A stretch of 59,466 nt of DNA from positions 1-59,466 of the forward strand of contig DASYZR010000110.1 in the NCBI GenBank assembly GCA_035945995.1. The letters run 5' to 3'. Positions 32,997 to 47,109 of the stretch are shown here, piece after piece. Under the pieces are notes generated by a model, which did not search any database, had not been told where the DNA came from, and worked only from the letters and a program-made list of their open reading frames with translations. The position numbers and the translations under genes are program-made. Source of the DNA: a bacterium. Lineage in GTDB: Bacteria; Sysuimicrobiota; Sysuimicrobiia; Sysuimicrobiales; Segetimicrobiaceae. How positions within the stretch are numbered: the stretch's first letter is position 1; each line of letters starts with the position of its first letter.

Positions 32997-33203
32997 CTAC
33001 CACGGAATCCAGGTGCCGCACTGCGGGTACGGGCACGCCGGCAGCGTGACGGGCGCGCCCCAAAGGCCGAGCCACCACGCCGCCCAGCGTTCCCAGATCC
33101 ACGGGATATGACCGAGGGCGAAGTAAAGCACCAGCAGGCTCACTAGCCCCAGGACCCCGACAAGGACCGATAGCTCCGGACCGACCTGCTCGACCGACGC
33201 CAT
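32997..33203 (-). CDS. small single-span membrane protein with CPxC-like motif
   Basis: The 68-aa product has one long hydrophobic segment ([20 protein letters not shown], residues 11-30) followed by a Trp-rich stretch and a short tail with [12 protein letters not shown], two cysteines four residues apart that could bind metal or be redox active. GAGGGGGAG precedes the ATG at 33203 by 5 nt, so it is probably real. It is driven by one copy of the shared 22-nt promoter motif (33246-33290). Confidence 0.75.
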
Positions 33204-33245: not shown

Positions 33246-33290
33246 ACAATAGGCGGTTCCGTCCGGATGCGCATCGGTCGAAGGGCCCAC
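33246..33290 (-). promoter_or_regulatory. shared promoter-like element, copy d
   Basis: Minus-strand GTGGGCC-CTTCG-ACCGATGC (33290-33271) is followed exactly 18 nt after GATGCG by TATTGT (33251-33246), which lies 42 bp before the start of the small membrane protein at 33203. The element aligns base for base with the copies at 41714-41760, 41815-41861 and 43475-43521. Confidence 0.65.
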
Positions 33291-33327
33291 GGGAGGGTTG
33301 GGCCGGGCCGTCGAAAATGGCGTGCCG

Positions 33328-34500
33328 ATGCCTGATCGCGAGCGTCCCCGGGGCATCTGGACCCGCCGGCAGCGGGCGGTCACTCTTCTCGCCTGGATCC
33401 TCTTCGGAGGACTCGCGTTGTGGCGGGTGTTGCTCGGCCCCTGGCCGTCGTTTCTCTACCGGCTGGCGGGTGTCGCGGTGCTGTATCTCGCCGTGCGGAC
33501 CGGCCTCGTGCTGCGGGGCGAGATCCCGGCGTGGGCGGAGTACACATTTCTCTTCGTCGATGCGGCGTTCGTCAGCGCGGTGGTGCGCCTTCTCGGCGGG
33601 CTGGCCTCGGATTTCTACCTCGCGTACTTCTTCGTGCTCGGCGAGGGGGCCGTCACGCTCGACCTGTGGCTGGTGGTCGCGCTGAGCGGCTGGGTGACCC
33701 TGGGGTATGCGCTCGCGACGCGGCCGTCGTCCTTCGACGCGATGTGGGTGGCGGTCTACCGCCTCTTCTTCCTGTTACTCGCGAGCGTCGGCGCGGCCTG
33801 GGTGGCCTGGCGGGAGGCGGCGCACGGTCGGGAAATCGCGTACCTCGGCGAGCAGCTTCTGCTTGAGGAAGAGCGCCGCCGGCTGGCCCGCGAGATCCAC
33901 GACGGCGTGGGCCACATCCTGGCCGCGGGGGCGCAGTCGGTGGAGCTCGTCGAGCGGCTGCTGCCGACGGACCCCCAGCGCGCCGCCGCGCTCCTGCCCG
34001 ATCTCAAGCGCCTGCTCCGGCAGGGGCTCGACGAGATCCGCCTCCTGGTCCTCGGACTCCGGTCCCCGGGACCGGCGGCGGGAGACGCCGTCGCCGCCGC
34101 CAGGCAACACCTCGCCGCGTTGTCCACCCGTACGGACATCACCACCGAGGTGCGCGCCGGTCCGGCGGAGATTCCGCTGTCGCCCGCCTCGGAGTTTGCG
34201 TTCCGGCGAATCCTCCAGGAGGCACTGACGAACGTGGTACGCCACGCCCGCGCGGACCACGTGGCAGTGACCCTCGGCCGCTCCGCGGATGCCGTGACCT
34301 GCAGCGTCGCAGACAACGGCGTCGGCATCGACGCCGGACGCGACGGCCATTGGGGTGGATTTGGGCTGGAGCACATGCGCGAGCGGGCCGCGGAGCTCGG
34401 CGGCACGCTCGACGTCGCCTCGAACCCGTCGGGCGGCACGACCGTGACGTTCTCGCTCCCGCTGCGCGCCGCCGCACGGCCGCGCGAGGGAATGCCGTGA
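33328..34500 (+). CDS. sensor histidine kinase, NarL-system (HisKA_3) type
   Basis: The 390-aa protein has five or so membrane segments in residues 15-165 with no large extracellular loop. A coiled linker follows, then the dimerisation/phosphoacceptor motif LAREIHDGVGHILAAGAQSV (His is phosphorylated, about residue 190). The HATPase_c part has LTNVVRHARADHVAVTL, VADNGVGIDAG and GFGLEHMRERAAELGG. It overlaps the response regulator gene by 4 bp. The signal is probably sensed in or near the membrane. In-frame TTG (33298) and GTG (33322) starts are alternatives; none has a clear ribosome site. Confidence 0.92.
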   Translation: MPDRERPRGIWTRRQRAVTLLAWILFGGLALWRVLLGPWPSFLYRLAGVAVLYLAVRTGLVLRGEIPAWAEYTFLFVDAAFVSAVVRLLGGLASDFYLAYFFVLGEGAVTLDLWLVVALSGWVTLGYALATRPSSFDAMWVAVYRLFFLLLASVGAAWVAWREAAHGREIAYLGEQLLLEEERRRLAREIHDGVGHILAAGAQSVELVERLLPTDPQRAAALLPDLKRLLRQGLDEIRLLVLGLRSPGPAAGDAVAAARQHLAALSTRTDITTEVRAGPAEIPLSPASEFAFRRILQEALTNVVRHARADHVAVTLGRSADAVTCSVADNGVGIDAGRDGHWGGFGLEHMRERAAELGGTLDVASNPSGGTTVTFSLPLRAAARPREGMP

Positions 34501-35177
34501 GCGGGGCGCCCCCAAAAATCCGGCTGCTCGTGGCCGATGACGAGAGCGTCCTGCGGCGTGCCCTCACGAGCCTACTCGGCATGGCGCCCGATATCGAGAT
34601 CGTCGGGGAGGCCGCGGACGGCGACGAGGCGGTGGAACTCGCGGTGGCGCGGCAGGCCGACGTCGTCCTGATGGACATCGGCATGCCGCGTCTCGACGGC
34701 ATCGCGGCGACGCGCCGGCTCGCCGAGCGGGCGCCCAGCGTGAAGGTCGTGATCCTCACGATCTACACGGACGACGACCGTGTCTTTCGCGCGCTACAGG
34801 CGGGGGCCCGGGGCTACCTCCTCAAGGACGCGAGCCCGGAAGAGATCCTCCGGGGGGTGCGCGCCGTCCGGGACGGCGAGGGGATCCTGCACCCCGGCCT
34901 CGTCGGCCGGGTGATTCGCGAATTCACCCGCGTCGCGGAGCCGGATCCCGAGCGGGCGCAGCGGTTCTCCGAGCTCACAGCGCGCGAGCGGGAGGTCCTG
35001 GACCTGCTCGCGGAGGGACTTCGTAACCACGATATCGCCGCCCGCCTGTCCATCGCGGAAAAGACCGTCAAGCATCACATCAGCAGCATCCTGTCCAAAC
35101 TGCAGCTCAACCACCGGACGGAGGCCGCGCTGCTGGCGTCGCGGCTGGGTCACGGCCGGCGCGGCGAAGCGCGTTGA
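34497..35177 (+). CDS. NarL/LuxR-family response regulator
   Basis: The 226-aa protein starts at a GTG overlapping the kinase stop (GTGA). The receiver domain has the acidic pair in LLVADDES, the phosphorylation site Asp in VVLMDIGMPRLDG, a Thr in VVILTIYTDD and a Lys in YLLKDASPEEIL. The LuxR helix-turn-helix at residues 160-220 contains LTAREREVLDLLAEGLRNHD and KTVKHHISSILSKL. It is the partner of the kinase upstream. Its last 71 bp overlap the antisense yihY gene end. Confidence 0.95.
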   Translation: MSGAPPKIRLLVADDESVLRRALTSLLGMAPDIEIVGEAADGDEAVELAVARQADVVLMDIGMPRLDGIAATRRLAERAPSVKVVILTIYTDDDRVFRALQAGARGYLLKDASPEEILRGVRAVRDGEGILHPGLVGRVIREFTRVAEPDPERAQRFSELTAREREVLDLLAEGLRNHDIAARLSIAEKTVKHHISSILSKLQLNHRTEAALLASRLGHGRRGEAR

Positions 35178-35955
35178 CCTCCGCCCCCGCCAACAAGATG
35201 AACGCCACCATGTACGACCACGTCATGAGGAGGAACGTCAGGCTGAAGGCGTCGCCGAACCGGTTCACGCCGGCAAGGTACCGGATGTAAAGCGGAAACA
35301 CCAGCGTGATGAGTTGGAGGGCGGTCCCGGCCAGCACGGCGCCCGGCCAGAGGGCGCGAAAGGGTAGCCGCACGTTCGGCACCACCGCGTAGAGCACGAA
35401 CGGCATCAGCGCGGCGAATACCCAGCCGCCGAGCAGCCCGAGGATCCGTCCCCACCCGGGCATCGGGCCGCGGTGCGCTCCCGCGAGCAGCGCGACATTC
35501 GAAGCGGCCACGGACAAGACGAGCAACGCCGAAAACACCAGGATCATGAGGAAGGCGACCAGGCGCTGCTGCACGATCCCACGCGACGGCGCGCCGAAGA
35601 CCCGGGCGAAGCTCGTTTCGATCGCGGTGAACAGATTCGAGCCGGCCCAGAACAGCGCAAGGAACCCGACCAGGCCGAGGAGCCCCGAGTGGTTCCCGGC
35701 GGCGTTGATCACGTCGGCCATCTCGCGGGCGACCTCCGCGGGAAACGCGGCGCGGATCGCGTGCAGGAGGCCCGCCCGCGCGGGGCCGCCCCGGTAGACA
35801 AACCCCCCGATCGCCGCGAGCGAGAGTGCCAGGGGAAACATCGCATAGATGATGTTGAACGCGATGATCGTCGCCTGCTCGGCGAGTTGATGCTGCGTCA
35901 GCCGCTCGAGGAAACGCCCCGCCCAGCGCACCGCGCGCGCGTTCGCGAGATTCAC
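35107..35955 (-). CDS. YihY/BrkB-family membrane protein
   Basis: The 282-aa protein has six predicted membrane segments and the conserved family opening QATIIAFNIIYAMFPLALSL. A GLLGLVGFLALFWAGSNLFT segment and MTWSYMVAFILLAGAEVNAL near the end are typical of the family (formerly mis-annotated as RNase BN). Its role is uncertain; some members are linked to envelope integrity. It overlaps the acyltransferase stop by 4 bp (ATGA) and is the last gene of the lipid operon. Confidence 0.92.
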   Translation of the reverse strand: MNLANARAVRWAGRFLERLTQHQLAEQATIIAFNIIYAMFPLALSLAAIGGFVYRGGPARAGLLHAIRAAFPAEVAREMADVINAAGNHSGLLGLVGFLALFWAGSNLFTAIETSFARVFGAPSRGIVQQRLVAFLMILVFSALLVLSVAASNVALLAGAHRGPMPGWGRILGLLGGWVFAALMPFVLYAVVPNVRLPFRALWPGAVLAGTALQLITLVFPLYIRYLAGVNRFGDAFSLTFLLMTWSYMVAFILLAGAEVNALRRAGRDPAATPAARPPSGG

Positions 35956-37223
35956 GCCCGGACGCCCGCGCCGCCGGCGGCGTTGGCCGCGTCGATCATC
36001 GTTTGGATGCCTGTTTGAAGGTCGCGGGTGAGCCGCAAGATGGTTTCCTTGCGGGTGCCCCGGGCGTCGTACGCGGCGAGGTACCCGCGCACGTCGATCG
36101 GCTCGCCGACCGTGACGGCCGCCGAGCGTCTCACCTTGGGCAGTTCCACGTAGCGGCCGCGGATCTCCCGTTCGAGCTTCGTCAACGTCTCGGCCATGCG
36201 CTCCGGCGTCGGACGGTTGAGCACGTAATCGTCGGCAAAGGACACCGAGCGGGCCGCGGCCTCCGCCCGCTCGAGGTCTCGCCGGAGGTCCGCCGTCCGC
36301 GCCTTCCGCTCCGCATCGGAGAGATCCGGTTGAACGCGCAGAGCGTCCAGCGCTTCGAGCAGGTGGAGCATCAGCCGGCGGGCCCGGTCAAACGGGAACT
36401 CGTCCCGCACCCGGCCGAGATAGCGGCGCTCCAGGCTGTCGAGGAGAAATTTCTGGATGTGATGCACGCGGTCGTAGACGGTCCACGCCGGGTCGGAGCG
36501 GAGGCCCCATTCCTCCTCTTTGCGGCCGAGCAACTCGACCCCGATCGCGTAGATGCGGTCGTAGAGCGGACCCGTCCGGCGCTCCCCGAAATACGCCGCC
36601 TCCAGGTCCGCCGCCAGCCGGTCCAGCGCCGGTGTGACGTCGTCCAGGTAGCCGTACTTGATCGCGACGGGGACGATCACGACGGGGCGGCCGGAATATC
36701 CCTCCTTGCGGTTTTCGCTCGCGACGTCGAGCGCGAGCATCGCGACGCCCGGCTTGAACGGCATCACCAGGTCGTTCAGCAGGTAGACTTCGCCTTCGGG
36801 GAAGACGAGCAGGTCGTACCGCCCCCGCTTCAGGATGTCTTTCGCAAATTGCTGGCACTTCGCGTTCTCCCCGCCGCGGTTGACGGAAAACCCGCCCATC
36901 CACTGCGTGACGAGACCGTTGAGGCCGTGGTTGGCGTCGAAATTCTCCCGGGTCGCCATGAAGGTCGCAAACCGGCCGGTCCGGCGCATCAGCTCCGTCA
37001 CCACCATGGCATCGGCGAAGTCGGAGTGGTTGGGCGTAATCAGGACACCCGGGGGGAGGGTCCGGAGTGTGTTCGTGTCTCGGATCTCGCAGGAGACACG
37101 CGCCCGCGGCATCGCGTAGAACCGGTTCACCAATCGCATCAGCCTGATGAAGGTCCGGCTGGGTCTGGCCGGCCGAAACTCCGTGATCGACGGCGGCTGC
37201 CGCACGGCGCTTCCCCCCGTCAC
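35952..37223 (-). CDS. PlsC-like glycerolipid acyltransferase with long C-terminal extension
   Basis: The 423-aa protein carries the acyltransferase blocks: ITPNHSDFADAMVVTELM (HxxxxD, here H-SDFA-D), the ATRENFD and GGFSVNRGGEN segment (substrate pocket), and LLVFPEGEVYLLND. A helical C-terminal region of about 220 residues, including LSDAERKARTADLRRDLERA, is not part of the minimal PlsC fold. It probably acylates a lysophospholipid or glycerol derivative. The GTG at 37223 overlaps the hydrolase stop as GTGA, which fixes the start. Confidence 0.85.
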   Translation of the reverse strand: MTGGSAVRQPPSITEFRPARPSRTFIRLMRLVNRFYAMPRARVSCEIRDTNTLRTLPPGVLITPNHSDFADAMVVTELMRRTGRFATFMATRENFDANHGLNGLVTQWMGGFSVNRGGENAKCQQFAKDILKRGRYDLLVFPEGEVYLLNDLVMPFKPGVAMLALDVASENRKEGYSGRPVVIVPVAIKYGYLDDVTPALDRLAADLEAAYFGERRTGPLYDRIYAIGVELLGRKEEEWGLRSDPAWTVYDRVHHIQKFLLDSLERRYLGRVRDEFPFDRARRLMLHLLEALDALRVQPDLSDAERKARTADLRRDLERAEAAARSVSFADDYVLNRPTPERMAETLTKLEREIRGRYVELPKVRRSAAVTVGEPIDVRGYLAAYDARGTRKETILRLTRDLQTGIQTMIDAANAAGGAGVRA

Positions 37224-38038
37224 GTCATCGTGGCGACGTGCTCCCGCAGGAACCCGATGACGCGCCGATCGTACTCCCGGGTCCCGACGCGACGCGTCCG
37301 CGCATGCCCGGCCTGCTCGACGATCCAGAGCGATTTGGGGTCCCCGCACGCGCCGTAGAGGGCCCGGGCATCCCCGACGTCGGTCAACCGGTCCTGCATT
37401 CCATGAATGATCAGGACGGGGCGCGGACTGATCTTGGCGATCGCGTCGATGGGAGCGACCGACGCCAGCGGCGCCCCGACGAGGCGCTCACCGAGCCGCC
37501 GCGTCCGGCGCCACGCCAGGGACGCGAGGGGCCCCCAGACCCGGCGCGCGACGCGCTCGACGGCGCGGTCGAGACGCGCGTAGCTGCTGTCCGCGACGAC
37601 CGCGTCGATCACCGGCGTCTCGGCGGCCGCGAGGATCGCCGCCGCGGCGCCCATCGAGAGCCCGACGACACCGATCCGGTGACGCGGTCCAGCCCGCTGC
37701 CGGACGAACGCGACGGCGCCCAGGACGTCCTGGACCTCCCGGTAGCCCAGCGTGACCGATGTGCGCTCGCTGCCGCCCCAGTTCCGGAAGTCGAAGGCGA
37801 GCACGCCGAAGCCGGCGTCCAGGAGCGCGCGGGCCAGGCCCGCCATGTCGCGCTTGCTTCCCGGCACGCCGTGGCAGAGGATGATCGTCCCCGTCGCGCC
37901 GTCCGGCTCGCCGTACCAACCGGCGAGCCGGATCCCATCCGGGCTCCGAAAGGCGACCGCACGCAGCCTCCGGTCCGGGATGGCCCGTCCCCGCGTGAAC
38001 CAACCGCCCCGGAGCATGGACACAAGCGACGGCCGCAT
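37220..38038 (-). CDS. alpha/beta hydrolase
   Basis: The 272-aa protein has the alpha/beta-hydrolase nucleophile elbow GVVGLSMGAAAAILAAAE (Ser in GLSMG), the oxyanion region ILCHGVPGSKRDMAGLARAL, the acid in IIHGMQDRLTDVGDARALYG and the His in EQAGHARTRRVG. The start at 38038 gives MRPSLVSMLRGG and lies 8 bp after the MFS stop. The substrate is probably a lipid or ester, judging by its operon with acyltransferases and an acyl-CoA ligase. Confidence 0.88.
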   Translation of the reverse strand: MRPSLVSMLRGGWFTRGRAIPDRRLRAVAFRSPDGIRLAGWYGEPDGATGTIILCHGVPGSKRDMAGLARALLDAGFGVLAFDFRNWGGSERTSVTLGYREVQDVLGAVAFVRQRAGPRHRIGVVGLSMGAAAAILAAAETPVIDAVVADSSYARLDRAVERVARRVWGPLASLAWRRTRRLGERLVGAPLASVAPIDAIAKISPRPVLIIHGMQDRLTDVGDARALYGACGDPKSLWIVEQAGHARTRRVGTREYDRRVIGFLREHVATMT

Positions 38039-38046
38039 GGAGGCGA

Positions 38047-39294
38047 CTATCGAGTGCCCTTGATCTTCCAGATGAAGATCGAGCCGAGCACCACTTCGAC
38101 GATCGCCATCGAAAAGATGACCGAGTACCCGCGGTTGGGCCCCATCCGGTTGAAGACGTCGAGCAGCGGCCCCGCGATGACGGGGGCGAGCACCTGGGGC
38201 AGCGTGTTCGCGATACCCCAGATCCCGAGATCCTTCGCGGCCGACTGACCCGAGGGCAGCACGTCGATCGCAAGCGCCCAATCCACGCTTGCATACGCCC
38301 CGTAGCCGATGCCGAACAGGACGCCGATCCAAAGCAGGGTGTGGAACGGCGGTTGAAAGAGCAGGCCGATGCCCGTGAAGGCGAGGAACATCCCCGCCGT
38401 CGAGACGATGCCCTTCCGCCCGATCAGATCCGAGGCCGGTCCGGCCACCAGCGCGACCAGCGCGCCCGCGGCGATCACGACGGCGCTGATGGTCCCGGTC
38501 GCCTGCGCCGCGTCGGGCCGGGAGAGATGGAGCGTATCGCGGAGGAAAAACTGGAGGAAGGTGATGATCGTGTAGAACCCCAGCATGACCAATCCCCGAG
38601 TGGCAAACAGCCAGGCGAAATCGGGGTAGCGGCGCGGGTCGACCCAGAACGACCGGATGAAGGCCGGGAGCACAAGCGGCGGGGCCTCCCGCAGCGGGGT
38701 CTCGCCGACCTTCCAGACGATGATGGCCGTCGCGGCGAGCAGCACACCGGCGATGACCCAGTAGACGGCGGCGGTCATGCCCTGCCCGACGAGGCGGCCG
38801 GACAGCAGCGCGGCGGCGATCGTTCCGCCCATCATCATGCCGCCCATCACCCCCGACATCGCGCCGCGCTGGGTGCGGGGGATCTTGTCGGGAATCAGAC
38901 CGTTGAAGGCGCTCGCGGCCAGGTTGACTGTCAATTGGACCCAGAGCAGGGCCGCGGCAAACGCGGCGTAGGTCGGCGCGTACCGCAGACCGAGCAGCCC
39001 GGGCACAGCGAGAAGCACCCCGCCGACGACGAACGGCCGCCGCCGCCCCATCGGCAGGGTGGAGCGGTCGCTCAACGCGCCGGCCAAGGGCGATATCACC
39101 ATGGCCACGACGGCGCCGCCCGCGAACAGGAGCCCGAGGTACAGCCCTTTCTGCGTCTCCGGCACGAACCGGAGTACTTCCGCCGGGACGACCACGGTGA
39201 GGAGCGCGCCCCAGTTGAAGCTGATCGCAAACCAGAAGACGCCCAGCCGGACGAGGAGCGCGAGCGGAACCGGCCGGAGCCGCTCCTGCTCCAC
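38047..39294 (-). CDS. MFS transporter (GPH/SLC45-like)
   Basis: The 415-aa protein has 12 membrane segments, with FWFAISFNWGALLTVVVPAE, the loop PLAGALSDRSTLPMGRRRPF that is characteristic of sugar/cation-type MFS members, and the second-half loop PASDLIGRKGIVSTAGMFLA. The start is the GTG at 39294, with GAGGAGG inside the end of the upstream ligase gene at 7 nt spacing, so translation is coupled. The substrate is unknown; the operon context suggests a lipid- or fatty-acid-related compound. Confidence 0.85.
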   Translation of the reverse strand: MEQERLRPVPLALLVRLGVFWFAISFNWGALLTVVVPAEVLRFVPETQKGLYLGLLFAGGAVVAMVISPLAGALSDRSTLPMGRRRPFVVGGVLLAVPGLLGLRYAPTYAAFAAALLWVQLTVNLAASAFNGLIPDKIPRTQRGAMSGVMGGMMMGGTIAAALLSGRLVGQGMTAAVYWVIAGVLLAATAIIVWKVGETPLREAPPLVLPAFIRSFWVDPRRYPDFAWLFATRGLVMLGFYTIITFLQFFLRDTLHLSRPDAAQATGTISAVVIAAGALVALVAGPASDLIGRKGIVSTAGMFLAFTGIGLLFQPPFHTLLWIGVLFGIGYGAYASVDWALAIDVLPSGQSAAKDLGIWGIANTLPQVLAPVIAGPLLDVFNRMGPNRGYSVIFSMAIVEVVLGSIFIWKIKGTR

Positions 39295-39296
39295 GG

Positions 39297-40988
39297 TCAA
39301 TCCTCCTCGCCGCTCCGCGCGGCCTCGGCCTCGCGGATTTCGCGCCGGAGCGGCTTCCCCACGGCGGACTTGGGCAGGGCGTCGACGACCCGCACCCGCC
39401 GGGGGACCTTGTATGTGGCGAGCCGCGATCGGCAGAACTCGATGATCTCGCGGCGGACCTCGCGCGCGTCGCCGGCGGCGCCGTCCTTGAGGACCACCTG
39501 GGCGACGAGTTGCTCTCCCCGGACCCGGTGCGGGACGCCGACGACCACCGCCTCGCGCACCTTGGGGTGCTCGTGCAGCACCTCTTCGATCTCGCGGGGG
39601 TAGACTTTCAGGCCCCCGATGATCACCAGGTCCTTCTTGCGATCGACGATGTAGAAGTACCCATCGTCGTCCATCCTGGCGATGTCCCCCGTGTAGAGCC
39701 AGCCGTCCCGGAGCGTCGCGGCCGTCTCCTCGGGCGTGCGCCAGTAGCCCTGCATCACCTGCGGGCCGCGGATGATCAGTTCCCCGGCCTCGCCGGGCGC
39801 CACGTCGCCCTCGCCGGTATCCTGATCTACGATTCGGGCGTCGGTGTCGGGCATCGGCAGGCCGATGCTGCCCGTCTTGCGCAGGCCGTGGACGGGGTTT
39901 GTGTGGGTGCCCGGCGAGGCTTCGGTCAGGCCGTACCCTTCCACGACGGTCGCGCCGGTGAGCCGCTCGAATTCGGCCTGGACTTCCCGCGGCATGCTCG
40001 CCGAGCCGCTCACGCAGACCTTGACCGAGGACAGGTCGTATCGCCGGACGTCCTTCAGTTGGTTGATGGCAAGATACACGGCAGGGGCGCCGGGAAAGAT
40101 GGTGGGCCGGTACCGGGCGATCGTCTCCGCCACGAGCCGCGTGTCGAACATGGCCATGAGCACGCAGATCACGCTCGCCCCGACGGCGACCGGGGTATTG
40201 AGCGCGACCGTGAGCCCGTACACGTGGAAGAAGGGCACGACCGCCAGGAACCGTTCCTCGCCCTCCCCGATGTCGCTGAGCCAATGCCGCATCTGCGTGC
40301 AGTTGACGACGAGGTTCCGGTGGCTCAGCATGGCGCCCTTGGGGACGCCCGTCGTGCCGCCTGTATACTGCAGAACGGCGAGGCTTTCCGGATCGACGGG
40401 GACCTTCGGCGGGCGAGGGGAGGCCCGCCGGAGGAGTGCCGTGAGCCGGGGTCCGGTCACCGCGCCACTCTGCCCCCGCATGCGCAGCCGGGCGATCAGT
40501 CTCCACAGCCAGGGAAAGAAATCGTACGGCTCGCTGATGATCACCGACACGCCGCTTGACTCCGCGAGCGCTTCATTGACCTGCGGCGCCAGACGTGAGA
40601 GGGTGACCACCACGCTCGGCTCCGAATTCTTGAGGACTCGCGTGAGCTCACGGGCCGTATACAGCGGATTGATGGGCACCACCGCCGCTCCCGCCTTGAG
40701 CGCGCCGTAGAAACACACGATGAACTGCGGCAGGTTCGGGAGGTGGAGCGCGATTCGGTCGCCCGGCCGGACGCCCTGCGCGATCAACGCGTTGGCGAAC
40801 CGGTTGGCGAGCCCGTCAATCTGGCGGTAGGTCAGCGTGGCCGAGAACTTTGGGCCCGCCAGAATGACGGCGGGGCGGTTGGGGAACCTTCGCGCGCTCT
40901 CCTCAAGCAGCCCGAACAGCGGAATATCGGGATAAGAGAGTGTCGCGGGGACCCCTTCATCGTAGTGGCGGAGCCATGGCCGGTCCAC
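39297..40988 (-). CDS. long-chain acyl-CoA synthetase
   Basis: The 563-aa ANL-superfamily protein has the ATP-binding motif LQYTGGTTGVPKGAMLSHRN, GYGLTEASPGTHTN, the YTGDIARMDDDGYFYIVDRK motif, KKDLVIIGGLKVYPREIEEV and a C-terminal Lys in ALPKSAVGKPLRR. It activates long-chain fatty acids. The GTG start at 40988 has GGAGG 6 nt upstream. It follows plsC by 18 bp. The product could feed acyl-CoA to the two acyltransferases in the same operon. Confidence 0.94.
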   Translation of the reverse strand: MDRPWLRHYDEGVPATLSYPDIPLFGLLEESARRFPNRPAVILAGPKFSATLTYRQIDGLANRFANALIAQGVRPGDRIALHLPNLPQFIVCFYGALKAGAAVVPINPLYTARELTRVLKNSEPSVVVTLSRLAPQVNEALAESSGVSVIISEPYDFFPWLWRLIARLRMRGQSGAVTGPRLTALLRRASPRPPKVPVDPESLAVLQYTGGTTGVPKGAMLSHRNLVVNCTQMRHWLSDIGEGEERFLAVVPFFHVYGLTVALNTPVAVGASVICVLMAMFDTRLVAETIARYRPTIFPGAPAVYLAINQLKDVRRYDLSSVKVCVSGSASMPREVQAEFERLTGATVVEGYGLTEASPGTHTNPVHGLRKTGSIGLPMPDTDARIVDQDTGEGDVAPGEAGELIIRGPQVMQGYWRTPEETAATLRDGWLYTGDIARMDDDGYFYIVDRKKDLVIIGGLKVYPREIEEVLHEHPKVREAVVVGVPHRVRGEQLVAQVVLKDGAAGDAREVRREIIEFCRSRLATYKVPRRVRVVDALPKSAVGKPLRREIREAEAARSGEED

Positions 40989-41006
40989 GAGTATCCTCCC
41001 TCGAAC

Positions 41007-41657
41007 TCAACTCGCGGCGCGCAAGCCGGGCATTCCAGCGTCCTCTGAGGCTGCCACGGCACCGCCCGACAGCCGAACAATCGCATCCATGACCCGCGCG
41101 GTCAGCGCCGATTGGTCGCGTCTCGTCGGCGCGCCTGCCGGCACGAAAGCCTCCCCGATGCGGACCGAGATCCTCCCTCGGCGGGGCATTCTCGTTCCGA
41201 GCGGCCACACCTCGTAGGTCCCGGCGATCCCGACCGGGATAATCGGCACGCGGGCCAGCCCTGCCAGGAACGCGAGACCGTCGTGGGCGGGCTGGAGGCG
41301 ACCGTCGGTGCTGATCTTCCCCTCTGGGAAGATCACGAGCGCCTCGCCGCGCCCGAGGCGCGCCAGGCACTCCTGAATCGCACCGCGGTCGAGCCGTCCG
41401 CGCTTGATCGGGACAGGCCGGAATGGACGGATGAGCGCGCCCAGCACGGGCATCGTGAGCAACTCCGCCGCGGCCAGGAACGTGCACCGCCGCGGCACGG
41501 CCGCCGCCACCACAAGGGGATCGATCTGGCTGCCGTGGTTGGCGGCGAGAATCACGGGGCCGCTTCGCGGGACGTGCTCCTCGCCTGTGACCTCCAACCC
41601 GAAGCCTAGTTTGAGGAGTCCCTTGAAGACCCATTGAAACGCCGCGTATCCGTCCAT
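41007..41657 (-). CDS. 1-acyl-sn-glycerol-3-phosphate acyltransferase (PlsC family)
   Basis: The 216-aa protein matches the minimal PlsC fold. Its blocks are ILAANHGSQIDPLVVAAAVP (H-x4-D: His-GSQI-Asp), the ALIRPFRPVPIKRGRLDRGA segment, LVIFPEGKISTDGRLQPAHD and a VPIIPVGIAGTYEVWP segment. It acylates lysophosphatidic acid to phosphatidic acid in membrane phospholipid synthesis. The ATG at 41657 follows GGGGG. It is the first gene of a six-gene leftward operon and lies under the shared promoter element at 41714-41760. Confidence 0.9.
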   Translation of the reverse strand: MDGYAAFQWVFKGLLKLGFGLEVTGEEHVPRSGPVILAANHGSQIDPLVVAAAVPRRCTFLAAAELLTMPVLGALIRPFRPVPIKRGRLDRGAIQECLARLGRGEALVIFPEGKISTDGRLQPAHDGLAFLAGLARVPIIPVGIAGTYEVWPLGTRMPRRGRISVRIGEAFVPAGAPTRRDQSALTARVMDAIVRLSGGAVAASEDAGMPGLRAAS

Positions 41658-41713
41658 CGCCAATCCCCCACGTTCCGGCGTGCCGCTGCTCCGTCGAGAC
41701 CGTCCTCGCCCTG

Positions 41714-41760
41714 ACGGTACCGTACCCCACGATGCCGGGCATCGGCCGAAAGACCCACCT
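41714..41760 (-). promoter_or_regulatory. shared promoter-like element, copy a (plsC operon)
   Basis: Minus-strand GGTGGGTC-TTTCG-GCCGATGC ends at 41739, followed by C. Counting 18 nt after GATGCC brings TACCGT at 41719-41714. The predicted transcript would begin near 41707, about 50 nt before the plsC start. It is back to back with copy b. Confidence 0.65.
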
Positions 41761-41814
41761 GGCCGCGTTGGCTTTGTCGTGCGGCCGCCAAACCGTATCT
41801 CGCGGCGGTTGATT

Positions 41815-41861
41815 GGGTGGGTCCAAAGGCCGATGCCCGTTCCCGGCAGGGCTGCTACCGT
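41815..41861 (+). promoter_or_regulatory. shared promoter-like element, copy b (39-aa membrane peptide)
   Basis: Plus-strand GGGTGGGTC-CAAAG-GCCGATGC (41815-41836) then C, then 18 nt, then TACCGT at 41856-41861. The start codon at 41896 is 34 nt further. The core differs from the other copies only in the middle CAAAG block. Confidence 0.65.
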
Positions 41862-41895
41862 CCATACCAAGGACGATCAGCGGGAGGAGTGACCG

Positions 41896-42015
41896 ATGGA
41901 CATCCGAGGCCTGGAACGGGCGTTGGACACGGTCCTGGGCATCACGATCACGCTGATGTGCGTCGTGGGCGTGTTCGTCCTGAGTCGCTATGCGCTGTCC
42001 GTCGTGTTTCGGTAG
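41896..42015 (+). CDS. 39-aa single-span membrane peptide
   Basis: This is a short gene with GGGAGGAG and 6 nt before its ATG. It encodes MDIRGLERALDTVLGITITL and MCVVGVFVLSRYALSVVFR: a short cytoplasmic amphipathic start, one hydrophobic span (about residues 13-32) and a basic end. It lies under promoter-like element b and 23 bp ahead of the next membrane-anchored protein, with which it is probably cotranscribed. Function unknown. Confidence 0.7.
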   Translation: MDIRGLERALDTVLGITITLMCVVGVFVLSRYALSVVFR

Positions 42016-42038
42016 GGTCGGGGGAGAACGGAGAGGCG

Positions 42039-42599
42039 ATGACCGTTTGGGGGGTGGTTCACGTGGATCCGCAGACGCCTGAGGCCCTTCGGGAACGCGT
42101 GGCCGCATTGAAACGGCGGTTACTTCTCGCCGTCGCGGGCCTGCTCGTTGTCATGGTGTCGCTCGTAGTCGGCGTGCTCGCGCAGAACGTCCGTGCACAG
42201 CCGAGCCTTGTCCGGGCTGCAGCAGGCGAGGTGACCAAGGCTGACTTGGACGCAATCCAGAGTCAGGTGAACGAGCTCCAAAGTCAGGGGAACGAGTTCC
42301 GGGCGGAACTGGGAGCGTACGGCATCCGGCTTACCGCGGTCGAGGAAGAGCTTCATGCGCGCACGCCCGCCCCGACCGACCAGGTGACGGCTCAAGGGCC
42401 CGGCGGCTACTGGACGGTCATCACGACCAAAATGCAGATCGTCGAAGGCAGAGGCGTCATGCAAGTGATGGGTCCTTTCCCCAGCGCCGCCATGTGCGAC
42501 GTGACGCTCAACGGCATCCTCGGCGGCCTCCGCGAGCAGGGCATCGCGGTCGAGTCGTCGGCCTGCCGCAAAAACGTCGCGATTGTCGTCCCGAAGTAG
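42039..42599 (+). CDS. membrane-anchored coiled-coil protein of unknown function
   Basis: The 186-aa protein (ATG at 42039, GGAGAGG upstream) has a basic N-terminus, one membrane span (LLLAVAGLLVVMVSLVVGVL, residues about 28-47) and a heptad-like stretch with repeated NELQSQGNEFRAEL (about residues 70-105). A small C-terminal domain follows with GPGGYWTVITTKMQIVEGRG and two cysteines (MCDVTLN, SSACRKN). It is probably anchored in the membrane with the C-terminus outside. I do not recognise the family. Confidence 0.75.
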   Translation: MTVWGVVHVDPQTPEALRERVAALKRRLLLAVAGLLVVMVSLVVGVLAQNVRAQPSLVRAAAGEVTKADLDAIQSQVNELQSQGNEFRAELGAYGIRLTAVEEELHARTPAPTDQVTAQGPGGYWTVITTKMQIVEGRGVMQVMGPFPSAAMCDVTLNGILGGLREQGIAVESSACRKNVAIVVPK

Positions 42600-42635
42600 G
42601 TCTGTCGTCCACGTCACGAACCGCGTGAGGGGGGG

Positions 42636-43463
42636 GTGGAGTCCGTGGAGGTCCGCGATGCACCAACGGCATGGCCCAACGTTGACCAGGCGGTCGATCC
42701 GGCCCGACTGGTGCGCTACCTGGATGCGGTGGGGGCAATCGTGGAAGCCCAACAGTACAAGCGCCAAACGTTCGCCGCTCTCGAGATTGAGCCCGGTCAT
42801 CGCGTGCTCGACGTCGGCTGCGGGACCGGTGAGGACGTGCGCATGCTCGCGCAGTTCGTGGGGTTGGCCGGTCGCGCCGTCGGTGTGGACAGCAGCAACG
42901 TCATGATCACGGAGGCCACGCGGCGGGCGCTGGGCACCGATCTGCCGGTCGAGTTCCGCGCCGCGAGCGTCTACTGCCTCCCGTTTCCTGACGCCGCCTT
43001 CGACGGCTGCCGGGCCGACAGGATGTTCCAGCACCTGGACGATCCCCGGACCGCCCTGTGTGAGATGAGTCGGGTCGTCCGCTCCGGCGGGCGGATCGTC
43101 GTGAGCGAGCCCGACTGGGACACCCTCATCGTCGATGCCGATCGGGACGCGACTCGAATGATTCTGCACGCCCGCTGCGACCGATACCGGAGCGGCCGGA
43201 TCGGCCGGCAGCTGGCAGGCCTCTTTCGGAAGTGCGGGCTACTCGACGTCGTGACCATGCCGCCCACGACGTTCGTCGTCACGTCGTACGACCGGGCCAA
43301 CGACATCTTTGGATTGCGGGACGCGGCCGATCGCGCCCGCGATGCAGGCGTCGTGTCCGCGGCCCAGGCCGGCGATTGGCTCGGGCAACTGGAAGAGGCC
43401 GATCGGACCGGGTGTTTCTTCAGCGCCGGGACGCTCTTCACCGTGGTGGGGCGGCGGGCGTGA
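42636..43463 (+). CDS. class I SAM-dependent methyltransferase
   Basis: The 275-aa protein has the SAM-binding motif [21 protein letters not shown] (about residue 55), motif II acidic residue in VGVDSSNVM, motif [23 protein letters not shown] (about residue 120) and [15 protein letters not shown]. This is a UbiE/methyltransferase-11 type enzyme acting on a small molecule or lipid. The GTG at 42636 sits directly behind a G-run; a second in-frame GTG 9 nt later has better spacing. The 36-bp gap from the previous gene allows cotranscription. Confidence 0.92.
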
Positions 43464-43474
43464 TTGCCCGGCTC

Positions 43475-43521
43475 GGGTGGGCCTTTCGACCGATGCCGGG
43501 ACGCCCCGGGGCCCCTACGAT
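43475..43521 (+). promoter_or_regulatory. shared promoter-like element, copy c (peptidase operon)
   Basis: Plus-strand GGGTGGGCC-TTTCG-ACCGATGC (43475-43496) then C, 18 nt, TACGAT at 43516-43521. The peptidase start codon is 28 nt further at 43550, after GGGAGG. It lies in the short gap after the methyltransferase stop. Confidence 0.65.
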
Positions 43522-43549
43522 CTAGGCAAGGCACTGGGAGGTGGTTGGC

Positions 43550-44434
43550 ATGTCCACGAGGATCCTGGCCGCGTGCCTGCTCTCCGTGGCCCTCACGCTA
43601 CCTGCCGCGGCCCAGCCATCCCCATCAAGCGCGGCGCCGGGTGGCCAGCCTGGATCGGCGGCTGCGCAGGATGTGGTGTTCCGGGTCAGTCCGTCGGTAC
43701 CCCCTGCCGTGGGCGAGGACATCCGGCAGCTGTTCTGGGAGTGCCTGAAGTTCCTCGGCGGCGACACCGGGCTCAGCCTCACGCACCCAGTCACCGTCTA
43801 CGTCTACGGATCACAGCGGGAGATCTACGAAGGTCTCCTGACCGAGCTCGGGGTGTCCGAAGGCGAGGCGCGCCGCATTGCGGCGGAGGCGTCCTTCTTC
43901 GTCGTCGGTGAGCGCGTCTTCATCAACGCCGGCACTTCGCTGTTTCTCGATGCCCCTCGGCGCGAGGCTCGTGCGCGGGTCATCGCTCACGAACTGACCC
44001 ACATCCTCCACAACGATCTCATGGGGGGCGCGCGCCCCGCCGCGCAGTGGATCAAGGAAGGCTTCGCGGTGCGCGAGGAGCTGCGGGCCGCCGAGCATCT
44101 GGGATTCCGGCCGGTCGCGGAGACCTCCCGGGAGCCCGTCAACCTGACGGTGTTCGCATTCCGGCACCGGGAACTGATTCCTTTCACCGATCTGGTGGCC
44201 GGGAGTGAGTGGCAGGCGCGGGCGCTGCGTGAAGGGCCCGACCGCATCTACGCCCAGGCATTCGTCGCGGTGGAGTACCTGGTCCGGACGAAGGGCCGGC
44301 CGGCGCTCCTCGCGTACTTCCGCGCCTTCCAAACGTCACAGGATCCCGGCGGCAATTTTGCCGACGCATTCGGGCTCGATTCCGACGCGTTCCAGCACGA
44401 GTTCGAAGGATACGTCGCATCGCTCGTTCCGTGA
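43550..44434 (+). CDS. secreted gluzincin-type metallopeptidase (MA-like)
   Basis: The 294-aa protein starts with a signal peptide (MSTRILAACLLSVALTLPAA, cleavage near AAAQP). It carries the zinc-binding motif HELTHILHNDLM (HExxH) and a third-ligand-type Glu in WIKEGFAVREE, about 23 residues on, as in gluzincins. A flexible Pro/Ser/Gly stretch follows the signal. The substrate is unknown. GGGAGG and 8 nt place the start at 43550. It is the first gene of a rightward operon under promoter element c. Confidence 0.88.
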   Translation: MSTRILAACLLSVALTLPAAAQPSPSSAAPGGQPGSAAAQDVVFRVSPSVPPAVGEDIRQLFWECLKFLGGDTGLSLTHPVTVYVYGSQREIYEGLLTELGVSEGEARRIAAEASFFVVGERVFINAGTSLFLDAPRREARARVIAHELTHILHNDLMGGARPAAQWIKEGFAVREELRAAEHLGFRPVAETSREPVNLTVFAFRHRELIPFTDLVAGSEWQARALREGPDRIYAQAFVAVEYLVRTKGRPALLAYFRAFQTSQDPGGNFADAFGLDSDAFQHEFEGYVASLVP

Positions 44435-44447
44435 AGGGGGAGACCCA

Positions 44448-45329
44448 ATGTTCCGACGGGTGGCGATAGTGTGCACAGTCGTGATCATCGGGGCCGTCGC
44501 CGCGGTGGTGGCCGGCTCCGAGCGGGCAGGCGCCGACACCGGTCAGGTGCAGGTGGTCGTGGCGCGGGATATCCTCAACGGCGATCCCGTCGGGGTGGAG
44601 AGCGCGTTTACGGGGACCGACCCGCAGGCCTGTATTCACGTCACGCTGCACGATGTCGACGAGTCCCACCTCGTGCGGGTCGTCGCCTACCGGCCGGACG
44701 GCTCTTTGTACGAGTCCTCCCAAACGAAAACGCCGACCCCTCCGTGGCACAAGTACTATCCGAAGTACCGGATCTGGTGGTGTGTGTCGATCGCGGAGCA
44801 TGAACCGGCGTTTCGGGTTGGGGAATGGCGCGTCGACGTGTTCCTCGACGGGCGCTTGGCGCGCACCGTGGGATTCGACATCGTCGGTATGGGGCTCGAT
44901 GAGGAGGAGAAGGCGGCCGCCCGGCTGCAGACGCTCCAATCACGGGTGGATGCCAATCCGTCTGATGCGAGAGCTCACGTGGATCTTGCGGAAGCCTATA
45001 TCGACCTCCACAAGCTTGACGAGGCGGCGACGCAGCTCCAGCGCGCCATCGCGCTCGACCCCGGAATGGCCTCAGCGCATGCCGTGCTCGGCTACGTGAA
45101 CCTACGCCAGGGGCGCCTGGATGAGGCGGAGCGGAGTCTGCTCCAGGCGGTCAAACTCAGGGACGACTATACGTGGGCCCGCTATCAACTCGCGTTTGTC
45201 TACAAGGCGAAGGGAGATACGGCCCGCGCGACCGAGCAATTTCAGCGGGTCGTTCGGCTCGCAGGCGACACCTCGATCGGAAAGAGCGCACAGGAGGAAC
45301 TGGCCAAGCTGGGCGCCGCGCCTCAATAG
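44448..45329 (+). CDS. secreted or membrane-anchored TPR protein
   Basis: The 293-aa protein has an N-terminal hydrophobic segment (MFRRVAIVCTVVIIGAVAAV, residues 1-22, signal or anchor), a beta-rich domain of about 130 residues (VGEWRVDVFLDGRLARTVGF), then tetratricopeptide repeats (about residues 165-275) with ARAHVDLAEAYIDLHKLDEA, AHAVLGYVNLRQGRLDEAER and ARYQLAFVYKAKGDTARATE. TPRs bind partner proteins; the neighbouring peptidase is a candidate. GGGGGAG precedes the ATG. It follows the peptidase by 13 bp. Confidence 0.85.
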   Translation: MFRRVAIVCTVVIIGAVAAVVAGSERAGADTGQVQVVVARDILNGDPVGVESAFTGTDPQACIHVTLHDVDESHLVRVVAYRPDGSLYESSQTKTPTPPWHKYYPKYRIWWCVSIAEHEPAFRVGEWRVDVFLDGRLARTVGFDIVGMGLDEEEKAAARLQTLQSRVDANPSDARAHVDLAEAYIDLHKLDEAATQLQRAIALDPGMASAHAVLGYVNLRQGRLDEAERSLLQAVKLRDDYTWARYQLAFVYKAKGDTARATEQFQRVVRLAGDTSIGKSAQEELAKLGAAPQ

Positions 45330-45403
45330 AGGCCGCGGCCGGCGAGGGCAAAAATGCGCGCCGTGGGACTGGCCAACGTGTGGCGTAGAAGGGGGGAGGC
45401 GAC

Positions 45404-46435
45404 GTGAACATCGCCAAGCGCGATCTCATTCGCGCCGCCACGGAATGCGGGGTATCCGACCAACAGGCGGAGCTCTTGTGGAACACGCTCGACGGACGCC
45501 AAGCGGGATTCAGGCGTTTCGACGTACCCACCGTCGCGTACTACCTGGGCGCCCTGGTCGTGATGGCCGCGATGGGGTGGTTCATGACCACGGCTTGGGA
45601 GCGGTTCGGCGGCCGCGGCATCCTGCTCATCGCGACGGTGTACGCCGCCTGCTTTGCGCTGGTTGGATACCGGCTCTGGCAGAGCAAAAACTACCGGGTT
45701 CCCGGGGGGCTGCTCGTGACGTTCGCGGTCTGGATGGTGCCGCTCGCGATCTACGGGCTCGAACGGACGACAGGTCTTTGGCCCCAGGGCGATCCCGGCG
45801 CGTACGCCGGCTACTACATGTGGATCAAGGGAAGTTGGTTCCTCATGGAGCTCGGGACTATTACGGCCGGCCTCGTCGCGCTGCGGTTCGTTCGATTCCC
45901 CTTCCTCACGTTTCCGATCGCGTTCGCCTTCTGGTACATGTCGATGGATCTGGCCCCTTTGCTGCTCGGACGGCCGCACGATGTGCTGTGGTACGGCGAT
46001 GACGCTCTGTGGGTATCGCTCGGCGTGGGGCTGATCATGCTGGTCCTGTCGGCCCTGGTCGACCGGCGAACAGTGGAGGACTACGCCCGTTGGGGCTACC
46101 TGTTTGGCCTGCTCTCATTTGCCGGCGGTCTTACGGTGCTGATGCGCACGGAGTCGTCGTGGGCGGCCTACGTCGCCGTCAACCTGGCCTTGATGTTCAC
46201 GGCAGTCGTCCTGCAGCGCCGCGTGTTTCTCGTCTTCGGCGCGATCGGAGTCTACGTCTACCTCGGGCGCCTCGCCTACGTCGTGTTCAAGGACTCCGTC
46301 ATGTTCCCGTTCGCGTTGACCGTGCTCGGGCTCGCCATCATCTACGGGGGCGTGCTCTACCAGCGCCATCACGAGCGGATCGAGTCGGGCATCCGCGCGA
46401 TATGGTCGGGGCGGCCGTCCGCGGCGGCCGACTGA
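45404..46435 (+). CDS. DUF2157-like polytopic membrane protein
   Basis: The 343-aa protein has a soluble N-terminal segment (residues 1-40) and eight to ten membrane helices, including VAYYLGALVVMAAMGWFMTT, FALVGYRLWQ and LTVLGLAIIYGGVLYQRHHE. The N-terminal soluble segment followed by a multi-helix bundle is typical of the DUF2157 group. Function unknown. It starts with GTG after GGGGGGAGGCGAC and is the third gene of the operon. Confidence 0.8.
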   Translation: MNIAKRDLIRAATECGVSDQQAELLWNTLDGRQAGFRRFDVPTVAYYLGALVVMAAMGWFMTTAWERFGGRGILLIATVYAACFALVGYRLWQSKNYRVPGGLLVTFAVWMVPLAIYGLERTTGLWPQGDPGAYAGYYMWIKGSWFLMELGTITAGLVALRFVRFPFLTFPIAFAFWYMSMDLAPLLLGRPHDVLWYGDDALWVSLGVGLIMLVLSALVDRRTVEDYARWGYLFGLLSFAGGLTVLMRTESSWAAYVAVNLALMFTAVVLQRRVFLVFGAIGVYVYLGRLAYVVFKDSVMFPFALTVLGLAIIYGGVLYQRHHERIESGIRAIWSGRPSAAAD

Positions 46436-46458
46436 GGCTGCTCGTGCGAGACACGAGG

Positions 46459-47109
46459 GTGCGGAAGGGCGCGCGCGTCACCTCCGCGGCAACGGCCCGC
46501 GCGCTGATGCTGACCGGCGGTTTGATCGTGTGTCTCGCTCTGCCGGGGCGGGCACTCTCCGCGCCGGCGCTCGGGCCCTGCGGCGGTCACGCCCGGGTCG
46601 ATCCCGGTGCGGGCGTCGGGCCGCTGCGGCTTGGGATGCCGGTGGCCGATGTCGAACGGCTCCTCGGAACTCCGCCGATGCCGGTGAGGCAGGGGACCGT
46701 CGCGGGGGTGCCCTGGGAAGACTGGTATTTCTTCCCACGCACCGACGTCGAGGTGTTCGCCAAGGATTCGGCCGTGGTTCAGATCGTGCTGGGAGCCGGC
46801 ACGCCAGACACCCGAGGGTGCGCGACGGCAGAAGGCATTCAGTTGGGAAGTCCGGCCGCGGCGCTCAGAGCCGCGTACGGCGCACCGGACGGCGTCTCGA
46901 TTGTCCGGAACCAAGGCGGCGGTCAGGTCATCGCGTTCTGGGTCTACGACAAACGGGGATTGCAGGTGATACTGGACACCGGCAACGACGTCCTGGGGCT
47001 GGAAATCTTCACTTCTGGAACGTTTTGCAGCGTGCAGGACAGCCTGCGGGCGCTCGGGTGGCCCCGGCTGGATTGCGCGGCGTTCACGCCGCCCTTGTCC
47101 GGCCGGTGA
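46459..47109 (+). CDS. secreted protein with BamE/SmpA-like fold segments
   Basis: The 216-aa product has an N-terminal signal peptide (ALMLTGGLIVCLALPGRALS, about residues 14-40). The mature part repeats a pattern seen in SmpA/BamE-like proteins: GVGPLRLGMPVADVERLLGT, then a second AEGIQLGSPAAALRAAYGAP. Cysteines at GPCGG, RGCATA, TFCSV and LDCAA could form disulphides. Function unknown. GTG starts at 46444 or 46459 and an ATG at 46507 are possible; none has a clear ribosome site. Confidence 0.7.
   Translation: MRKGARVTSAATARALMLTGGLIVCLALPGRALSAPALGPCGGHARVDPGAGVGPLRLGMPVADVERLLGTPPMPVRQGTVAGVPWEDWYFFPRTDVEVFAKDSAVVQIVLGAGTPDTRGCATAEGIQLGSPAAALRAAYGAPDGVSIVRNQGGGQVIAFWVYDKRGLQVILDTGNDVLGLEIFTSGTFCSVQDSLRALGWPRLDCAAFTPPLSGR

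Follow-up and report, generated by a model that had tools for sequence, protein, structure and literature searches.

In the 59,466-nucleotide stretch of DNA analyzed here (the window; contig DASYZR010000110.1 of assembly GCA_035945995.1, from an uncultured bacterium of the Segetimicrobiaceae), four copies of a promoter element surround the genes for a membrane histidine kinase and a NarL/LuxR-type response regulator. Each copy consists of a 20-nt box (GTGGGYC, five nucleotides, RCCGATGC) followed at a fixed distance by a TANNNT hexamer. Taken together, the sequence comparisons make it very probable that the boxes are operators of the local response regulator, which would act as a class II activator and switch these promoters on.

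The box-plus-hexamer element was found in the window in four copies that align without gaps. Box 1 (GTGGGCC-CTTCG-ACCGATGC) is located at 33271..33290 on the minus strand, with the -10 element TATTGT 19 nt past it (33246..33251, minus). Box 2 (GTGGGTC-TTTCG-GCCGATGC; 41739..41758, minus) precedes TACCGT (41714..41719, minus), box 3 (GTGGGTC-CAAAG-GCCGATGC; 41817..41836, plus) precedes TACCGT (41856..41861, plus), and box 4 (GTGGGCC-TTTCG-ACCGATGC; 43477..43496, plus) precedes TACGAT (43516..43521, plus). An earlier reading of the sequence only had located these copies, although three of its coordinate pairs begin 2 nt ahead of GTGGG. The gap between RCCGATGC and TANNNT, which it gave as a constant 18 nt, is 19 nt in all four, and the 5-nt block that it called variable is partly constrained, being YTTCG or YAAAG in most sites. 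Pattern searches of the 4.15-Mb genome (98.8% complete) returned these four exact copies and none beyond them, whereas base composition predicts ~0.002 for the window and 0.17 for the whole genome; copies with one or two mismatches were not found elsewhere in the window. Each copy is intergenic and oriented with the gene that follows it, 28, 34, 42 or 56 nt ahead of a start codon that has its own Shine-Dalgarno-like sequence; the sequence-only reading had put the copies 28-60 nt before start codons, in sense. The clustering of all copies within one 10-kb region could reflect chance or the common ancestry of duplicated intergenic DNA. However, the four copies have unrelated flanking sequences, the chance count is 0.002, and the same box stands at both orthologous and non-orthologous genes in relatives, leaving this explanation with almost no probability. 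The four elements are real promoter switches, and lipid and envelope genes are indeed tied together by one common promoter element, whose spacing is nearly fixed.

The 20-mer contains an imperfect inverted repeat, T-G-GGNC-N4-GNCC-G-A, whose axis scored highest among those tested. Its center lies 30.5 nt ahead of the T of TANNNT, or at approximately -42.5 if that T is taken as -12 (start sites are inferred). Across 16 sites in four genomes (see below), the box takes the form TGGGNC-N4-GNCCGATG, with an A at the third letter of one site, and T2, G4, G5, C7, G12, C14, C15, G16, A17, T18 and G19 are invariant. The gap to TANNNT is 19 nt in 14 of the 16 sites and 20 nt in the other two, and the palindrome is supported by the near-invariant position pairs 2:17, 4:15, 5:14 and 7:12. 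The hexamer resembles a sigma-70/SigA -10 element, and class II activator sites are built in this way, with a palindrome that covers the -35 region at a fixed distance from such a -10. Symmetry is incomplete: the repeat calls for C at position 16, where the box has G, and the GAT(G) toward the -10 is not fully matched upstream. Since GAT(G) falls at about -36 to -33, it may serve the polymerase as well as the activator.

Many operators that overlap the -35 region are repressor sites, and the regulator might likewise bind these boxes, cover the -35 region and block polymerase. Yet no TTGACA-type promoter or usable stand-alone -35 hexamer was found in 41600-43600, which holds promoters 2 to 4, and the fixed direction and spacing between box and -10 are expected of activators, while repressors do not need them. 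Relatives of NarL type that use such boxes also activate, as does DosR, whose proximal sites overlap the -35 region (PMC3029386). Repression is thus highly improbable, and activation from a class II position is the reading followed here.

The kinase gene (33298..34500, plus strand; Pfam HisKA_3 and HATPase_c) encodes the proposed sensor, with at least four hydrophobic helices in its N-terminal half; its start may be ~30 nt downstream. The adjoining gene (34497..35177, plus) encodes a response regulator with Response_reg and GerE domains, the proposed reader of the boxes. A regulator with receiver and GerE/LuxR helix-turn-helix domains and a HisKA_3 partner kinase is linked to the sites, and the pair (33298-35177) begins within a few bases of copy 1; the earlier reading overlooked this probable regulator. 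A profile search of the genome contigs with the kinase alignment returned distant kinases and no near relative. The earlier reading had instead expected one sigma factor or activator, and of this the single reader stands, while a special sigma factor has become less likely. Near-constant spacing and fixed direction would suit a dedicated alternative sigma factor, extracytoplasmic function (ECF) or other, that reads the two halves as -35 and -10; the genome has 19 sigma-region-2 genes, and one such gene in the related genome G002 lies ~2 kb from the cluster (C68:19881). However, no Sigma70_r2 gene is present in the window or beside the clusters of two other relatives (G001 and G003), so that a cognate sigma gene linked to the promoters, or conserved beside the cluster, was not found. 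The hexamer is of sigma-70 type, the upstream half is an imperfect inverted repeat centered near -42.5, and the boxes track response-regulator homologues across families. Because of the palindrome, the sigma-70-type -10 and the lack of a sigma gene in the window, a dedicated sigma factor is very unlikely.

Conservation was assessed in a phylum set of 43 species, all of one order, in which G001 and G002 belong to the same genus as the window and G003 to another. The sequence-only reading had proposed a search of the genome and its relatives, which gave, with the four intergenic copies of the window's own genome counted in, a total of 16 sites in four genomes, mostly before orthologous genes. 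Box 1 is kept before the gene for a 68-aa protein in G001 (L075:16123) and G002 (L076:17731), box 2 ahead of plsC in G001, G002 and G003, box 3 before the gene for a 39-aa peptide in G001 and G002, and box 4 ahead of the orthologous peptidase operon in G003 (L079:7085-7066). Additional boxes precede a separate DUF2157 gene in G001 and G003 and an acyl-CoA ligase gene in G003; the DUF2157 gene, which has its own box in these two genomes, lies inside the peptidase operon in the window, an instance of boxes standing ahead of different genes once the gene order has been rearranged. When the box plus TANNNT was searched with at most one mismatch in the 43 genomes, matches came from the same four genomes and otherwise from two sister genomes, with one match each and no TA, while the backwards control gave one match. 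Its own genome aside, the regulator has close orthologues (77-86% identity) in just three genomes of the order, G001, G002 and G003, which are those with the box plus TANNNT. In G004, a plsC homologue is present and the box is absent. A looser search for the 20-mer, with one mismatch in 61 genomes, gave mostly background.

Divergent, back-to-back boxes with centers 27-76 bp apart were observed in all four genomes, before differing gene pairs (window 41739-41836, where boxes 2 and 3 are paired as they are in G001 and G002; L076:9227-9275; L077:7530-7583; L078:7790-7847; L075:10520-10589). Within a second plsC copy of G001 (L075:9351), a degraded box-like sequence, GTGGCTCTTCCGGACGATTC, is followed by GACGGT and may be chance or a remnant.

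An independent test of the tie between regulator and box, as judged from sequence, is provided by genomes outside the window's own family (mostly of family f2 and one of f6; here, family 2, with the window's own family as family 1). The generalized pattern TGGGNC-N4-GNCCGAT, 20-22 nt, TANNNT was run over the 43 genomes and gave five matches outside the family and none in its backwards control. In G012, G024 and G027, the sole genome-wide match lies 0.08-2.1 kb from the best homologue of the regulator (46-54% identity), a proximity with a chance of ~1e-8 in three genomes. Isolated matches in G020, G029, G030, G038, G009 and G006 were judged to be chance, since they have no TA hexamer in place or no regulator homologue above threshold. 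Conversely, eight loci chosen solely for their regulator homologue hold 12 elements (at most one mismatch), where 100 shuffles gave 0.18 on average and never more than 2, and other loci totaling 204 kb hold one. Most elements of the eight loci lie 25-37 nt ahead of a start with a good Shine-Dalgarno match. The genes behind the family-2 elements encode an AMP-binding acyl ligase, which repeatedly adjoins the regulator, and a secreted, trypsin-like protease; for a paralogous branch of regulators, the product is a type II secretion F/PilC protein. By recognition helix, the regulators form three groups: EKTVKHH, EKTVRNH (or EKTVRNY) and ERTVKNH.

Another activator of the same class, whether a different NarL/LuxR protein or an unrelated palindrome-binder, might read the boxes instead, with the local pair as target or bystander. 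Box 1 does lie at the start of the kinase gene, and the paralogous branch has very similar boxes (GGNC-N4-GNCCGATTG), so that the core is not exclusive to a single regulator. However, the regulator is the transcription-factor gene that accompanies the boxes in both family-1 genera and in family-2 loci, and the sole genome-wide match of three genomes adjoins it. This alternative is unlikely, and the local regulator is the favored reader. The boxes of the paralogous branch, each with TANNNT, stand directly ahead of the T2SSF (GspF/PilC) gene (L135:7801, L143:10206 and L144:5519) and probably mark a sister regulon that serves either a pilus or a secretion system.

The architecture of the box is known from other regulators, contrary to the claim of the sequence-only reading that no described motif has this pattern. 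The core GGGNC-N4-GNCC is that of the DosR/DevR and OsdR boxes (PMC6448022, PMC5069765); the DosR consensus is GGGACTTNNGNCCCT in its stringent and RRGNCYWNNGNMM in its weak form (PMC6448022), and that of Streptomyces OsdR (SCO0204) is AGGGCCGATCGGCCCT (PMC5069765). The weak DosR consensus is matched in one register by all 16 family-1 boxes and by one of the 11 family-2 boxes, where a random 13-mer of this composition would fit with a chance of ~0.0005. Boxes of family 1 depart from the stringent consensus by 2-5 mismatches, and those of the window by 3-5. One DosR promoter has been likened to class II cAMP receptor protein (CRP) promoters (PMC5360333). Mycobacterial DosR/DevR promoters share with those described here the core in the same register, the box over the -35 region and the SigA-type -10, and the recognition helix reads AEKTVKHH here and AEKTVKNY in DevR, with AEKTVK identical and two residues differing. 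In contrast to DosR/DevR, the -10-side half-site is CCGAT rather than CCC, each promoter has a single box, and the targets are lipid and envelope genes rather than hypoxia genes. The kinases of the DosR/DevR system, DevS and DosT, have GAF sensor domains, whereas the Pfam scan of the kinase found here gave HisKA_3 and HATPase only, with a membrane N-terminal half and no GAF domain. VraR and NarL also score higher than DevR against the regulator. Judged by sequence, the promoters would work like a DosR promoter, but by the regulator's overall similarity and the kinase's domains this is not a DosR system. OsdR boxes are likewise inverted repeats, GGGNC-N4-GNCC, with sites clustered around the regulator gene (PMC5069765), but they are perfect palindromes and serve a stress and development regulon.

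The genes behind the four boxes are lipid and envelope genes. Box 1 precedes a 68-aa protein with one transmembrane (TM) segment (32997..33203, minus; ATG 42 nt past the -10), whose orthologues (52-66% identity) have the same box in front. Behind box 2, a PlsC-type acyltransferase (41007..41657, minus; Pfam Acyltransferase, 3e-30; ATG 56 nt past the -10) is the first gene of an operon that continues on the minus strand (35107..40988) with an acyl-CoA ligase (39297-40988), an MFS transporter (38047-39372), an alpha/beta hydrolase (37220-38050), a second acyltransferase (35952-37220) and a YihY-like membrane protein (35107-35955); this order is kept in G002, largely in G003 and partly in G001. 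Box 3 precedes a 39-aa one-TM peptide (41896..42015, plus; ATG 34 nt past the -10, with GGAGG ahead), with orthologues 72-74% identical across the full 39 aa. Neither small protein has a Pfam match, and the length and sequence of both are kept in relatives behind the same box. Box 4 precedes an operon (43550..47109, plus) for a secreted Peptidase_MA_2-type protein, a TPR protein, a DUF2157-like membrane protein and a secreted 226-aa protein (46429-47109). The C-terminal part of two box-linked trypsin-like proteases of family 2 (L139:2108-3187 and L137:699-1775) is ~30% identical to the 226-aa protein, and this shared part is a predicted recurring, unnamed secreted domain of the regulon.

The lipid operon, the one-TM peptides, the secreted and membrane targets and the multi-helix membrane kinase suggest that the system may control membrane lipid and envelope state, in a role comparable to that of DesKR or LiaSR. 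DesKR controls membrane lipid composition. VraR of VraSR/LiaSR is the closest solved relative of the regulator (2.5e-45), DesR also matches and the kinases are multi-helix membrane proteins, but the targets differ, and the comparison covered the regulator match and the kinase helices. Aas/LplT is a lysophospholipid reacylation system, and the lipid operon similarly joins a PlsC-type acyltransferase, an acyl-CoA ligase and an MFS transporter; the genes are separate here, however, and show no family-level match to LplT, so that the comparison is a lead only.

Several observations weigh against the proposed regulon. Positions 6 and 13 are complementary in five of the 16 family-1 sites, with no palindrome-type covariation, and positions 3 and 16 in none, so the half-sites are unequal. 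Within the family, genomes that lack the regulator also lack most target genes, including the peptidase and DUF2157 genes; co-occurrence of regulator and box there is therefore partly circular and not independent evidence. The family-1 regulon is confined to one neighborhood or possibly neighboring contigs, which leaves action in trans conjectural. Three of the eight homologue loci belong to the paralogous regulator branch, the conserved letters of family 2 are partly selected because its boxes were collected with the family-1 pattern, and the genome has further NarL-type paralogues that could recognize this core.

The element itself, its spacing, conservation and intergenic sense position, its palindromic layout and its linkage to the regulator family are observed, and a mechanism can be proposed from them. 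The membrane histidine kinase would probably phosphorylate the response regulator in response to a membrane-sensed signal. A phosphorylated dimer would then bind T-GGNC-N4-GNCC-A, centered ~42.5 bp upstream of the start and over the -35 region, and recruit RNA polymerase with the housekeeping sigma-70-type factor to a TANNNT -10 that lacks a -35 partner, by class II activation as for DosR/DevR. On the -10 side, the fixed GAT(G) would be the seat of sigma region 4 and would give the box its direction. Binding, phosphorylation, the signal, and activation rather than repression are what we infer from these sequences. The predicted output is the PlsC/acyl-CoA ligase/transporter lipid operon, the two tiny membrane proteins and the secreted peptidase operon, and the system would plausibly tune membrane lipids and envelope to the signal. 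A more specific version is offered tentatively: a DosR-type operator with built-in direction, in which the invariant CCGAT(G) (about -37 to -33) would be both the second half-site and a -35 surrogate for sigma region 4, while the membrane kinase would control phospholipid acyl remodeling and tiny membrane proteins, with conservation across several families of the phylum and differing target genes.

This is apparently a known kind of bacterial control, like that of mycobacterial DosR, which an uncultured bacterium applies to its membrane-lipid and envelope genes. What had been a vague promoter motif becomes a testable two-component regulon, to which two tiny membrane proteins of 39 and 68 aa are assigned and in which a membrane kinase would govern lipid and envelope genes through a DosR/OsdR-like operator. 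An uncultured lineage would thereby gain, from its DNA alone, a concrete candidate regulator, an operator sequence and a list of targets.

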